DNA from: an uncultured Cellvibrionales bacterium
GTDB taxonomy: Bacteria; Pseudomonadota; Gammaproteobacteria; Pseudomonadales; Porticoccaceae
Assembly: GCA_913062605.1 (NCBI GenBank)
Contig: CAJXWQ010000005.1
Span: forward strand, 62,001-126,000
Length of the DNA stretch: 64,000 bases
Direction: 5' to 3'
A program made the translations under genes and the position numbers. This document shows, piece by piece, positions 38,805-42,399 of the stretch. Under the pieces are notes generated by a model. The model was not told the origin of the DNA, made no database searches, and worked only from the letters and a program-made list of their open reading frames with translations. Position 1 is the first letter of the stretch. The number at the start of each line of letters is the position of its first letter.

Positions 38805-39959
38805 ATGACCGACTCGCTGCTTAGCCTTCCTCCGCTCTCGCTCTACGTCCACATTCCCTGGTGTGTACGCAAGTGCCCCTATTGTGACTTCAACTCTCAC
38901 GCGGCATCTGAAGAGCTCCCTGAAGAGGAATACGTACTTGCCCTGATCCGCGACCTCGACATTGAACAAGCTTATGTACAAGGCCGCAAACTGACCTCGA
39001 TTTTTTTTGGTGGTGGAACCCCAAGCCTGTTTTCCGTTGAAGCTATCGGTAGAATTATTCAGGCCGCGAATCGCCGGATTGGGTTTGAAGACGACATAGA
39101 GATCACCCTAGAAGCCAACCCCGGAACATTCGAACAAGAAAAATTTATCGGCTATCGCAGTGTTGGGGTCAACCGCTTATCTATCGGCGTACAAAGTTTT
39201 AACGACCAGAATTTAACCCAGCTTGGCCGCATACACTCAGCCGAGCAGGCTATCACTGCGATCAATTCTGCCAGAGCTGCGGGCTTTGAAAACTTTAACC
39301 TCGATTTAATGCATGGCCTGCCCGGTCAAACAACCGTAGAGGCCATGGCCGACTTGCAACAAGCGATTGACCTGGCCCCCACGCATATCTCCTGGTATCA
39401 ATTAACCATTGAGCCCAACACCGAGTTTTATAGTAGACCGCCCTCTCTGCCTACCGATATTATTTTAGAGGCCATACAAGATCAGGGGCACCAGGTTTTA
39501 CTCAACAACGGTTACAAACAGTATGAAGTGTCCGCCTTTTGTAACGACCAAAAAGAATCTTCACATAATAAAAACTATTGGTCGTTTGGTGACTATTTAG
39601 GTATCGGTGCCGGTGCACACGGAAAAATCACCCTGCCCTCTGAGCAACGCATTATCCGTACTACCAAAACCCGAAAACCCGGCGATTACCTATCGCGAAA
39701 AAATTCTTATACCGCCAGTTGTAAAAATATTCCGGCAGATGAACTACCACTCGAATTTATGATGAATGCGATGCGATTAAATGCCGGGGTACCCACCGAA
39801 TTATTTTCAGAACGAACGGGAATTTCTCTAGAAGAAATAAAACCGGCACTGGGTACGCTGTTAGAACAGGGATTAATAAACCAACAAAGTACACACCTGA
39901 AACCGACACAAAAAGGTCATCAGTTTTTAAATACTTTGTTGGAAATATTTAATGCTTAG
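38805..39959 (+). CDS. hemW: Radical SAM heme chaperone HemW
   Basis: 384 residues. Radical SAM cluster motif CVRKCPYCDF (near 20-29) with the trailing Cys/Phe of the HemW type, then FFGGGTPSLF, ITLEANPGT, RLSIGVQSF and the LDLMHGLPGQT segment. The C-terminal HemN_C domain (FMMNAMRLNAGVP) is present. HemW transfers heme to respiratory enzymes rather than acting as coproporphyrinogen dehydrogenase (established for the family). It ends 27 bases before the first attC-like site. Confidence 0.92.
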   Translation: MTDSLLSLPPLSLYVHIPWCVRKCPYCDFNSHAASEELPEEEYVLALIRDLDIEQAYVQGRKLTSIFFGGGTPSLFSVEAIGRIIQAANRRIGFEDDIEITLEANPGTFEQEKFIGYRSVGVNRLSIGVQSFNDQNLTQLGRIHSAEQAITAINSARAAGFENFNLDLMHGLPGQTTVEAMADLQQAIDLAPTHISWYQLTIEPNTEFYSRPPSLPTDIILEAIQDQGHQVLLNNGYKQYEVSAFCNDQKESSHNKNYWSFGDYLGIGAGAHGKITLPSEQRIIRTTKTRKPGDYLSRKNSYTASCKNIPADELPLEFMMNAMRLNAGVPTELFSERTGISLEEIKPALGTLLEQGLINQQSTHLKPTQKGHQFLNTLLEIFNA

Positions 39960-39986: not shown

Positions 39987-40045
39987 CACTAACGCCTAAA
40001 GCATGGGCGCAGCTTTTCTGCGTCCGATGCCTTTACTTGTTAGGC
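39987..40045 (-). other. attC recombination site of cassette 2
   Basis: 59 bases. On the minus strand it begins GCCTAAC and ends GTTAGTG, with an inner imperfect hairpin: TAAAGGCAT pairs with ATGCTTTA leaving one unpaired G, and GGACGCAG pairs with CTGCGCC leaving one unpaired A. Extrahelical bases on one arm are the hallmark of integron attC sites. The stop codon of the cassette gene lies inside it. The outer GTTAGTG departs from GTTRRRY, as expected where the last cassette meets chromosomal DNA. Confidence 0.85.
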
Positions 40046-40557
40046 CTTTCGGCCATATTTAATAACATAAACTTTGAATTTGGGTCGCACTCTTTATTGC
40101 ACCACATACCCCATTGGGAGTTACCATAATCAAAGAACTGAAACCCAAGTTTTTTACCTGAAATAGAAGCTACTTTAAGTGAATAAACTTTTGGCTTCGT
40201 TTCTGATACATCAAAACCTGCCTCAAATATTTTTCTTGATACTTCCGCCTCATTGCCAGTAAGAGCAACCATTTCAATTTTTGTGAAATATGACTTATTG
40301 CCCAGGGGTTCCGGGTTAGAGCGAACCATTTGAGACGGAATCATTACTGGACTATAGCTGCCAGGATTTGACCAAACCCAACCCTCTTTATTGGTGATGA
40401 TGTGGCCATAGGGAGTACATATAAGTTGGCCCCAGTTGCTCAATGGGGTCGGAAGCTCTACCACTGCGGATTCGGACGCTCCACTGCAATCTCCGGAAGG
40501 TGACGCAATTGCATTTACCGAAAGTAAAAACATTACGACCAAAATTGAATATTTCAT
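40033..40557 (-). CDS. Cassette-borne exported protein, unknown function
   Basis: 174 residues from the ATG at 40557; AAGGAG lies 5 bases upstream. Signal peptide MKYSILVVMFLLSVNAIAS, then a mature part of about 155 residues with four cysteines (GDCSGAS, LICTPYG, MWCNKECDP), suggesting disulfides in the periplasm. No known domain recognised. The frame fills most of a 585-base cassette, beginning 20 bases after the upstream recombination point. Confidence 0.75.
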   Translation of the reverse strand: MKYSILVVMFLLSVNAIASPSGDCSGASESAVVELPTPLSNWGQLICTPYGHIITNKEGWVWSNPGSYSPVMIPSQMVRSNPEPLGNKSYFTKIEMVALTGNEAEVSRKIFEAGFDVSETKPKVYSLKVASISGKKLGFQFFDYGNSQWGMWCNKECDPNSKFMLLNMAERPNK

Positions 40558-40571
40558 CGACACTCCTTGTG

Positions 40572-40646
40572 ACCTAACGCTAAGGTTTGGGGCAGAACGC
40601 GAAGCGGACTGTCCCAGCCGAAGGCGACAACACCGCTTTGTTAGGC
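40572..40646 (-). other. attC recombination site of cassette 1
   Basis: 75 bases. Minus strand starts GCCTAACAAAGCGG and ends TTAGCGTTAGGT, close to common attC ends. An inner arm TGGGACAG pairs with CTGCCCCA leaving one A unpaired. The cassette circle would regenerate GCCTAAC...GTTAGGC, fully complementary. Confidence 0.85.
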
Positions 40647-40729
40647 TTTATTAAACTATTTGGCTCAGTCATTAATAGCATTACTCTGTTCTCGGCGATT
40701 TTTACTTTGTTTTCAATAGGTAACATTTC

Positions 40730-41086
40730 TTACAAGTTATAACATTTCTTCATATATTGAGGCCTAGCTAACTCCACCTTTTTTCTGAATGATTTATCTA
40801 TTTCTCCAGATGGGTCATAAAGAGCCTTTGTTTCAGCTTCAACTTGCTTTATAGATAGTTGAGGGTTATTTCTTTTAAAAGTTAATACTTTTCGGAAATA
40901 TTCTTTATACTGATAATCTAAATTGTTAAATATCGTTTCATAAACACATGTTAAAAGGGATTTATCAGATTCACTTTTTGTGCGATTGAGCTCAATACCA
41001 TACTGAATGTATTCATCAAGCAAATTTTCATCAGTAGCAAAAGATAAATTGGGCATAAGGAAAACTAGCACTATTGCAAAACGCAT
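40730..41086 (-). CDS. Cassette-borne small exported protein, unknown function
   Basis: 118 residues. Signal peptide MRFAIVLVFLMPNLSFA, then about 100 charged residues with two cysteines (LLTCVYE, KKCYNL) and many Lys, Glu and Tyr; strongly AT-rich coding unlike hemW or arsM. AAGGAT precedes the ATG. No domain recognised. It occupies a 557-base cassette, starting 48 bases after the cassette boundary at 41134. Confidence 0.72.
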   Translation of the reverse strand: MRFAIVLVFLMPNLSFATDENLLDEYIQYGIELNRTKSESDKSLLTCVYETIFNNLDYQYKEYFRKVLTFKRNNPQLSIKQVEAETKALYDPSGEIDKSFRKKVELARPQYMKKCYNL

Positions 41087-41128
41087 GTTTTAAGATCCTT
41101 TTTAGCTCACTGGTTCGGTTGATTGTAA

Positions 41129-41216
41129 GCCTAACAGTCTGTTAATGAGGCCTACGGCCTCATAATAATTATTATCGGGTGACCAGTATAATAACTTATC
41201 GGGCCTACCTTGTTAT
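41129..41216 (-). other. Cassette array upstream boundary, degenerate attC-like site
   Basis: The minus strand ends in a perfect GTTAGGC (41135-41129), the recombination half-site bounding cassette 1. The rest, back to TAACAAGG at about 41213, has weak symmetry: TAGGCC, an ATAAT-rich stem and an 8-base perfect hairpin ATGAGGCC-GTA-GGCCTCAT. The far half-site GAATAAC does not fit RYYYAAC, so this may be a decayed attC. No attI or intI is visible further upstream. Confidence 0.5.
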
Positions 41217-41358
41217 TCGACAACTATTTGAACTATATAGATTAATCATTGATTAATGGTTTTTTACAAAAGATTATCGGGTCAATTCCTAGTGTAAATT
41301 ACATGTGCAATGAGAAATAAATCTAACCATCACCTCTCAACTATCACACCCTTTAGCC

Positions 41359-42399
41359 CTAACAACACCCACCACTTTTAGCGGCCTTTTCTGAGAAAGG
41401 CAACGTACTCACACCCTGGTTAAAAATACCATTGTGCTGCTCAAAGTTACCTGAAAATTCAAAATGACCTGAAAACCGGGAGCCTTTTAAAACACGATAG
41501 GTGTTGCCGCACACGGAGACTGATTTGCCTTTGGGTATTCTGTTGTGTTTATCCAGTTCAAAGGCGCAGCCATTGTTGGGTACGGTTCCTTGATAAACCA
41601 CCGACTGGCCATAGTCTTCACTACTGTGTTCCAGGTCAGTTAATTTAAAGAGCCGGTAGGTGGCTGAGTAAAAATTGATGTGGCCAATTTTGTTTTTCAC
41701 CTTATCGTTGTCGATGCCCAGTGGGCGATCTTCTACCAACCGTGGGTCGGCAAACCCCGATTGTTTGGCCAGTTGAATAAAATCATTCCAATACAATGCG
41801 CCACTGAGGCATTCACCATAAAGCACCGGATCGGCCATCAGCTCTTCGGGCACACGGCGGTCGGCATAGACATCGGAAAAATACAGCTCTCCACCGGGTT
41901 TTAATAATCGGTAGGCCTGTTCCAGCACGGCTTTTTTATCGGGCGACAGGTTAATGACGCAATTGGAGACGATGATATCGAAGCTTTTATCGGCTAAATT
42001 CAGTTCATCGAGCTTTTCAATATAGCCTTTGATAAACCGTACGTTGGGCTGACTAAAACCAAATGCCTCTCGGTGATGGTCGATATGCCGATTGGCGACG
42101 GCCAGTTGTTCATCGGTCATATCCACGCCGACCACTTCACCGGCTTCACCCACCAATGCGGATAACACATAGCAGTCCTGCCCCGAGCCACTACCCAGAT
42201 CGAGGATGCGCATGCCTTGGAGTAATTCCGGTGCCACCAGACCGCAGCCATAATATTTACTGCTCACTTCCGGGTGAATTTTCGCCATGATGGGTTTGAT
42301 ATGGGCGGGGATATTGTCCAGGGTGCAGCAGGCATCGGTTTTTAAATCGTCTGAACCCGTCAACTCCTTACCGTAATAGTCTTTTACTGTTTCGTGCAT
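41359..42399 (-). CDS. arsM: Arsenite S-adenosylmethionine methyltransferase
   Basis: 346 residues. SAM motif ILDLGSGSGQDCYVLS (near 66). Cysteines expected for As(III) binding are present: the N-terminal ACC (near 24), SNCVINLSPDK (near 146) and GECLSGALYW (near 197). A C-terminal extension ends in GGCC. It should methylate arsenite to methylated, volatile or less toxic forms. It lies 65 bases downstream of the disulfide reductase fusion on the same strand. Related SAM methyltransferases are possible alternatives, but the three-cysteine pattern favours ArsM. Confidence 0.85.
   Translation of the reverse strand: MHETVKDYYGKELTGSDDLKTDACCTLDNIPAHIKPIMAKIHPEVSSKYYGCGLVAPELLQGMRILDLGSGSGQDCYVLSALVGEAGEVVGVDMTDEQLAVANRHIDHHREAFGFSQPNVRFIKGYIEKLDELNLADKSFDIIVSNCVINLSPDKKAVLEQAYRLLKPGGELYFSDVYADRRVPEELMADPVLYGECLSGALYWNDFIQLAKQSGFADPRLVEDRPLGIDNDKVKNKIGHINFYSATYRLFKLTDLEHSSEDYGQSVVYQGTVPNNGCAFELDKHNRIPKGKSVSVCGNTYRVLKGSRFSGHFEFSGNFEQHNGIFNQGVSTLPFSEKAAKSGGCC

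Follow-up and report, generated by a model that had tools for sequence, protein, structure and literature searches.

An integrase-less integron between hemW and arsM as one of a set of dispersed attI docks, probably served in trans

The window analysed here is a 64-kb stretch of DNA from an uncultured member of the Porticoccaceae, referred to below as the source genome. Between hemW and a gene resembling arsM it holds two short genes on the minus strand, each lying in a gene cassette that ends in an attC site, and an attI at the border of the array that faces the arsM-like gene. The features are listed below; R1 stands for the attC covariance model described after the list.

38805-39959, plus strand: hemW, left flank (TIGR00539, over cut-off)
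39987-40045, minus strand: attC of cassette 2, 59 nt (R1 33.2 bits, E 7e-7; fold z -3.6)
39993-40577, minus strand: cassette 2, 585 bp; ends G|TTAGGT and G|TTAGTG
40033-40557, minus strand: ORF of cassette 2, 174 aa, ATG at 40557 behind AAGGAG; no family
40572-40646, minus strand: attC of cassette 1, 75 nt (R1 28.7 bits, E 1.5e-5)
40578-41134, minus strand: cassette 1, 557 bp; ends G|TTAGGC and G|TTAGGT
40730-41086, minus strand: ORF of cassette 1, 118 aa; no family
41132-41191, minus strand: attI (dock), with a TAACAG..CTGTTA box pair at the crossover, a hairpin and an AT-rich stretch; the minus-strand cassettes read away from it
41145-41163, no strand assigned: conserved hairpin ATGAGGCC-TAC-GGCCTCAT in attI, from covariation and DNA fold
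41171-41180, plus strand: direct repeat ATTATCGGGT, copy 1; copy 2 is at 41273-41282
41192-41272, no strand assigned: remains of the attI-intI spacer of intI-bearing copies, from DNA matches in relatives
41359-42399, minus strand: arsM-like methyltransferase, right flank (best NCBIfam match arsenite methyltransferase, 176.5 bits, under the cut-off of 263)

The sequence-only reading had placed three crossovers on the minus strand, G|TTAGGC (G at 41135), G|TTAGGT (40578) and G|TTAGTG (39993). All three are where it put them, and they bear out the cassette lengths of 557 and 585 bp. The attC sites were examined with R1, trained on 37 sites of relatives and a plasmid site, 38 in all, with the source genome held out. 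The model requires TAACAA and misses looser attC, and its E-values are rough because the calibration was shortened. Its covariation table is circular, the training sites having been picked for pairing, and hence was set aside as evidence. Covariance scores below threshold had been named beforehand as grounds for giving up the attC sites; the scores obtained, 33.2 and 28.7 bits, are strong, and the proposed sites of 59 and 75 bases are the sole R1 matches on both strands of the 64-kb window at E≤10. A fixed rule combining consensus and pairing returns the same two attC and no others on either strand of the window; the background was one match when 20 shuffled 64-kb sequences were scanned on a single strand. 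The first structure scanners were dropped, attC not being separable from background with them. Rfam gave no match.

In both attC the R''/R' and L''/L' arms are arranged canonically around a 3-nt spacer, and a single base is extra-helical. As single-stranded DNA the 59-base site has a clearly more stable fold than its shuffles (z -3.6), the 75-base site a modestly more stable one (z -1.5). For one arm of the 59-base site an unpaired G and an unpaired A had been reported; the G stands and the A does not, as the minimum-energy fold leaves G and C unpaired.

Neither cassette gene could be assigned to a family: the 118-aa and 174-aa ORFs have no significant match in Pfam, NCBIfam or PHROGs, the best for the 118-aa ORF being at E 0.11 (Pfam) and E 0.022 (PHROGs), which are not significant. 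Both proteins start with stretches that look like signal peptides when judged by eye, in agreement with the claim that they are exported. The description of the two genes as AT-rich holds for cassette 1 (GC 0.348, compared with 0.476 for the window) and does not clearly hold for cassette 2 (0.427). The 174-aa protein has distant relatives, 38-39% identical, in two other genomes of 390 (loci L286 and L287), and in both an attC (38.0 and 30.9 bits) starts 2 bases past the gene, so that this family evidently travels as a cassette. The 174-aa ORF has no match in plasmids and no relative in viral contigs.

The earlier reading described a CALIN-like pair of cassettes without an integrase. This is correct for the cassettes and the integrase, but the third border was overlooked as an attI. 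R2, a covariance model of the attI copies of relatives, gives it 71.9 bits over 41132-41175. The scores of the relatives' own copies lean upwards, the model having been trained on them; only the copies of the source genome were held out. The DNA from 41129 outwards recurs in relatives, and in the alignment their similarity stops abruptly at the crossover, TAACAGTCTGTTAATGAGGCC..., the DNA on the cassette side being unrelated. In the hairpin, 39 sequences of relatives show 24 cells changed on two sides, compared with 4.5 in shuffles, and the 60 nt of attI fold as DNA with z -3.4. The hairpin probably matters. The attI pattern was found in none of the viral contigs.

As had been claimed, the window holds no intI: tblastn with 24 IntI proteins gave no match at E≤0.05. 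The DNA at 41192-41272, where matches in relatives extend to 41203-41209 and in one genome to 41239, likewise contains no intI relic by comparison with 24 IntI proteins. It is missing in the sister genome G080, which is without DNA between two ATTATCGGGT copies. The locus shares features with more than one kind of known element. Two attC on the same strand lie about 0.5 kb apart, a cluster of at least two such sites as in a CALIN, and no integron integrase is nearby. The attI at the start of the array and the single orientation of the attC are features of a complete integron, of which the adjacent intact intI is absent. Insertion at an attG would have used a genomic site other than attI, and the border here is an attI. 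Since attI and cassettes have been retained without intI, the locus is an integron that has lost its intI, and is more than a cluster of attC.

The presence of the cassettes is lineage-specific. hemW occurs in all 17 genomes of the genus and the arsM-like gene in 15 of them (source genome counted). Identical content at the locus in distant relatives would have counted against mobile cassettes; when the hemW-arsM gap was compared in 15 genus genomes, it proved empty in nine (17-41 bp). The other six have an insert, of about 1.4 kb in the source genome, 476 bp in G080, 992 bp in G075, 689 bp in G081, 367 bp in G082 and 236 bp in G079. Among these six the attI is present here only in the source genome and G080. 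The HemW of G080 is 96% identical, and the same attI is adjoined there by about 320 bp of unrelated DNA. The end of this DNA looks like a shortened attC when judged by eye; with R1 at E≤10 the insert yields no attC. The inserts of G075, G082, G079 and G081 (loci L140, L143, L148 and L152) are unrelated stretches of 236-992 bp without attI or attC matches (R1 at E≤0.05). The gap seems to be a recurrent insertion place.

The attI of the window is one of many, and they are dispersed. With R2 at least 68 copies were found in 25 of 112 genomes of the family; these are lower bounds, since strict filters were used and 56 first-look candidates were scored in each genome. A further 40 were found in 10 genomes of Marinobacterium, Methylophaga, Nitrincola and Pseudomaricurvus, picked from those found by an exact-pattern search; eight of the 10 have an intI over cut-off, one each. 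Together these make at least 108 copies in 35 genomes, from 1 to 6 apiece, and 28 of the 35 genomes have two or more. An intI over the TIGR02249 cut-off lies beside 14 of the at least 108 copies, 170-208 bp off and in the same orientation, and never beside two in one genome. Two of the 14 are imperfect: that of G080 has an internal stop, and in G113 the match covers no more than positions 1-254 of 315. In G114 an intI interrupted by three stops lies apart from every attI copy. In 10 of 17 genomes of the genus, and in all ten of those from the other four genera, attI occurs at 2-6 places, of which no more than one adjoins an intI over cut-off; several attI of the same type per genome, a single one at most with intI, is what is seen.

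The exact attI pattern, searched for in the GTDB genome collection, returned 59 stretches from 31 genomes, 17 of which have at least two. They belong to Porticoccus, other Porticoccaceae, Marinobacterium, Methylophaga, Nitrincola, Pseudomaricurvus and some other Gammaproteobacteria. These attI copies are associated with cassettes: 66 of the 67 attC matches in the 59 stretches (E≤0.05) are on the cassette side and in cassette orientation, where by our own arithmetic about 23% would be expected. No attC lies within the retrieved DNA of 19 stretches. At the place expected for IntI, 11 stretches have a long match (weak in L284 and not reaching the end in L245), 16 have a fragment and 32 have none; among the last, L246, L262 and L273 extend fewer than 200 bases to that side, too little for a judgement. 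From such fragments beside docks it follows that some docks, at the least, started out as whole integrons. The 16 fragments all start at 103-220 nt from attI, so what has been kept is the part of intI nearest to attI. Perhaps a cassette promoter located there is behind its retention.

In a tree of IntI proteins, 13 dock-adjacent IntI fall in one 100/100 branch, separate from IntI1 and IntI2. The branch has 18 rows: the 13, four others and one Pseudoalteromonas protein. In two of the four others the contig begins just before intI, so attI would be cut off. The tree leaves out the dock-adjacent IntI of L107, L245 and L284, and L271 and L274 repeat genomes that are included.

The source genome itself has at least three attI copies found by R2: that of the window, one on contig C22 and one on contig C10. 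The C10 copy is beside tatD, where an 84-aa frame (L005, 1369-1623) by our reading fuses an N-terminal to a C-terminal part of IntI, the middle being deleted; attI and attC adjoin this remnant. At the tatD loci that match C10, intI has decayed in place, to a fragment in G079 and by one stop in G080. The C22 attI is followed by a weak IntI fragment (E 8e-5). Elsewhere in the source genome no match over the TIGR02249 cut-off was found; the assembly is 91% complete, so the absence of intI from the genome is not certain. The source genome probably has no working IntI at present, and its docks, with remnants only and no intI over cut-off, may be frozen.

At least nine attC were found in the source genome with R1 at E≤0.01 (150 of 447 first-look candidates scored): three on C5, two of which are those of the window, two on C16, and one each on C10, C8, C22 and C2. 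The top-scoring attC listed, at 41.6 bits, is C5:37854-37928, on the same contig but outside the window, with none of the three attI near it. There are also attC on contigs without an R2 attI match (C16:37167-37589, C8:55316-55383 and C2:49356-49416).

Whether docks without intI are still in use can be approached by comparing copies. Genus copies without intact intI were compared in 48 within-genome pairs, with identities of 0.90, 0.83 and 0.68 in the first three 20-nt bins. Beyond about 60 nt identity falls to 0.48-0.59, about the shuffled level, and it is alike on the cassette side. Four genomes of four species (G071, G077, G078 and G084; loci L108, L110, L124 and L126) have a common attI beside hemB (porphobilinogen synthase), with more than 3 kb of aligned right flank and no IntI match at E≤0.05. 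The contents of this common intI-less dock differ: the DNA at the crossover is unrelated among the four, the nearest match on the left side, among the matches listed, being 899 bp off. The attI of G071 and G077 has changes near the crossover. R1 gives 29.4 bits at this dock in G078, weak scores in G084 (17.1) and G071 (15.2), and nothing in G077 at E≤10. Another dock, with an intI fragment beside it, is common to G073 and G086 (L165 and L168); a block of about 385 bp is present in G073 alone, exactly between G and TTAGCGG. By eye this block has an attC-like end; R1 finds no attC in either locus at E≤10, the end of the block being unrecognised. The difference may be a gain in one genome or a loss in the other. 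As R1 is silent or weak at the docks compared, apart from that of G078, cassettes there were judged by inspection and from their borders, and the model may be too demanding.

At E≤1e-60 no intI is found in G071, a one-contig genome with four docks, nor in G073 and G086, both of which are incomplete assemblies. Preservation of the docks was compared between 13 genomes with intI and 14 without, and the median scores, 68.0 and 65.75 bits, do not differ clearly (p 0.20). The comparison covers 27 of the 35 genomes. It omits G008, G013, G018, G037 and G074, which have one copy (the one copy of G086 was kept), G081, whose sole copy is beside intI, G070, whose intI is on another contig, and G080, whose intI has a stop. 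The attI copies beside intI are also not clearly better preserved than the rest (p 0.13).

Scattered cassettes have been described before, and the systems below are compared from excerpts of the published accounts. CALINs resemble the present locus in having at least two attC and no intI nearby, and differ from it in that an attI is present here (PMC9024848). According to the same excerpt, attI is poorly described outside class 1 and hence goes undetected by IntegronFinder 2.0, so such docks would be filed as CALIN. In Xanthomonas, CALINs occur at several recurrent chromosomal places off the single intI locus, and intI has been lost (PMC12444791); the excerpt mentions no attI, whereas each place here bears a cognate attI copy. 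Shewanella has many small scattered groups of cassettes (CALIN/SALIN) in genomes with and without intI (PMC9229058), and again, unlike here, the excerpted text mentions no attI at the groups. Insertion at attG and the delta-attI cassettes (PMC12901181, excerpt) have in common with our case that IntI acts off its usual attI and that pieces of attI lie away from intI. The difference is that here an attI of about 60 nt stands in the chromosome, which is neither a genomic site devoid of attI features nor the end of a cassette. Decayed intI are common, both here and among the intI pseudogenes and multi-intI genomes surveyed earlier (PMC2426708, excerpt), but here attI copies are more numerous than intI, 14 of at least 108 adjoining one over cut-off. 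The sources proposed for CALINs are off-target insertion, loss of intI and rearrangement (PMC8618304, excerpt). No dispersed attI copies are announced in the titles and abstract openings of the open-licence literature searched, and an earlier description is possible.

The explanation that we favour, and consider likely, is that the hemW-arsM locus is an integrase-less integron and one of a number of dispersed attI docks, probably served in trans. The two cassettes would have entered in the standard way, by crossover of attI to attC, between hemW and the arsM-like gene, and the intI expected between attI and arsM would have been lost. IntI from one place, present now or in the recent past, would recombine the attC of circular cassettes into any attI dock, and the chromosome would thereby have several landing places for cassettes. 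Action of IntI on the docks in trans is what we infer; a published assay, known to us from an excerpt, places IntI1 and attI1 on separate plasmids (PMC12690207). A more general form of this explanation is a distributed integron, with one intI per chromosome and several short attI docks, each with the covarying hairpin, that occupy separate, partly orthologous places and each gather cassettes in trans. This is quite possible, if somewhat short of probable. We likewise put at a little under even the chance that the docks are remnants of whole integrons whose attI stayed in use.

Another reading is decay alone. Whole integrons may have been gained or copied repeatedly, each then losing its intI and becoming inert, with attI surviving by chance or as the carrier of a cassette promoter. 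The intI fragments at 16 of the 59 copies with the GTDB pattern agree with such a history, as do the internally deleted intI at tatD and the weak fragment at C22 in the source genome, the decay in place at the tatD loci of G079 (fragment) and G080 (one stop), the preservation of docks without a clear link to the presence of intI, and the small number of clear attC at the docks compared. Counter to the reading of the docks as relics only are the hemB attI, where four genomes with a common intI-less right flank have unrelated DNA at the crossover, the block that fits exactly into the crossover next to a fragment of intI in the G073/G086 pair, and the within-genome copies, of which only about 60 nt are conserved while the surrounding DNA has diverged. 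We regard it as possible and rather doubtful.

Two other explanations concern the attI itself. It could be retained for the expression of the first cassette gene, as promoter or 5' hairpin, and not for recombination, which would agree with the covarying hairpin adjoining an AT-rich stretch and with a promoter-like pair at 41216-41188 directed towards the cassettes. Yet promoter-like matches are about as numerous as in shuffles (4 vs. 4.5) and the conservation starts exactly at the crossover; moreover, promoter and recombination roles are compatible. Retention for expression alone is unlikely. That IntI put both cassettes off target, at an attG-like site between hemW and arsM, the likeness to attI being incidental, is very improbable. 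Such an origin would sit well with the unrelated inserts between the two genes in G075, G079, G081 and G082, which are without attI or attC matches; GTTATGC and GCATAAC can be seen by eye close to the ends of the G081 insert. An off-target origin is largely refuted by the border, which scores 71.9 bits as attI, and by the sister genome G080, where different DNA adjoins the same attI.

Integrons are described as a single platform made of an integrase, one adjoining attI and one array of cassettes. In the genomes considered here attI outlives and outnumbers intI, and a set of attI of which no more than one adjoins an intI suggests an integron that occupies several places. If the satellite docks work, a cell would have several first positions for new cassettes, and capture would be independent of a local integrase. 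If the distributed integron is real, many clusters filed as CALIN would be working docks and not debris. The attI of this branch of IntI can now be searched for, which makes a part of the CALIN question directly testable.
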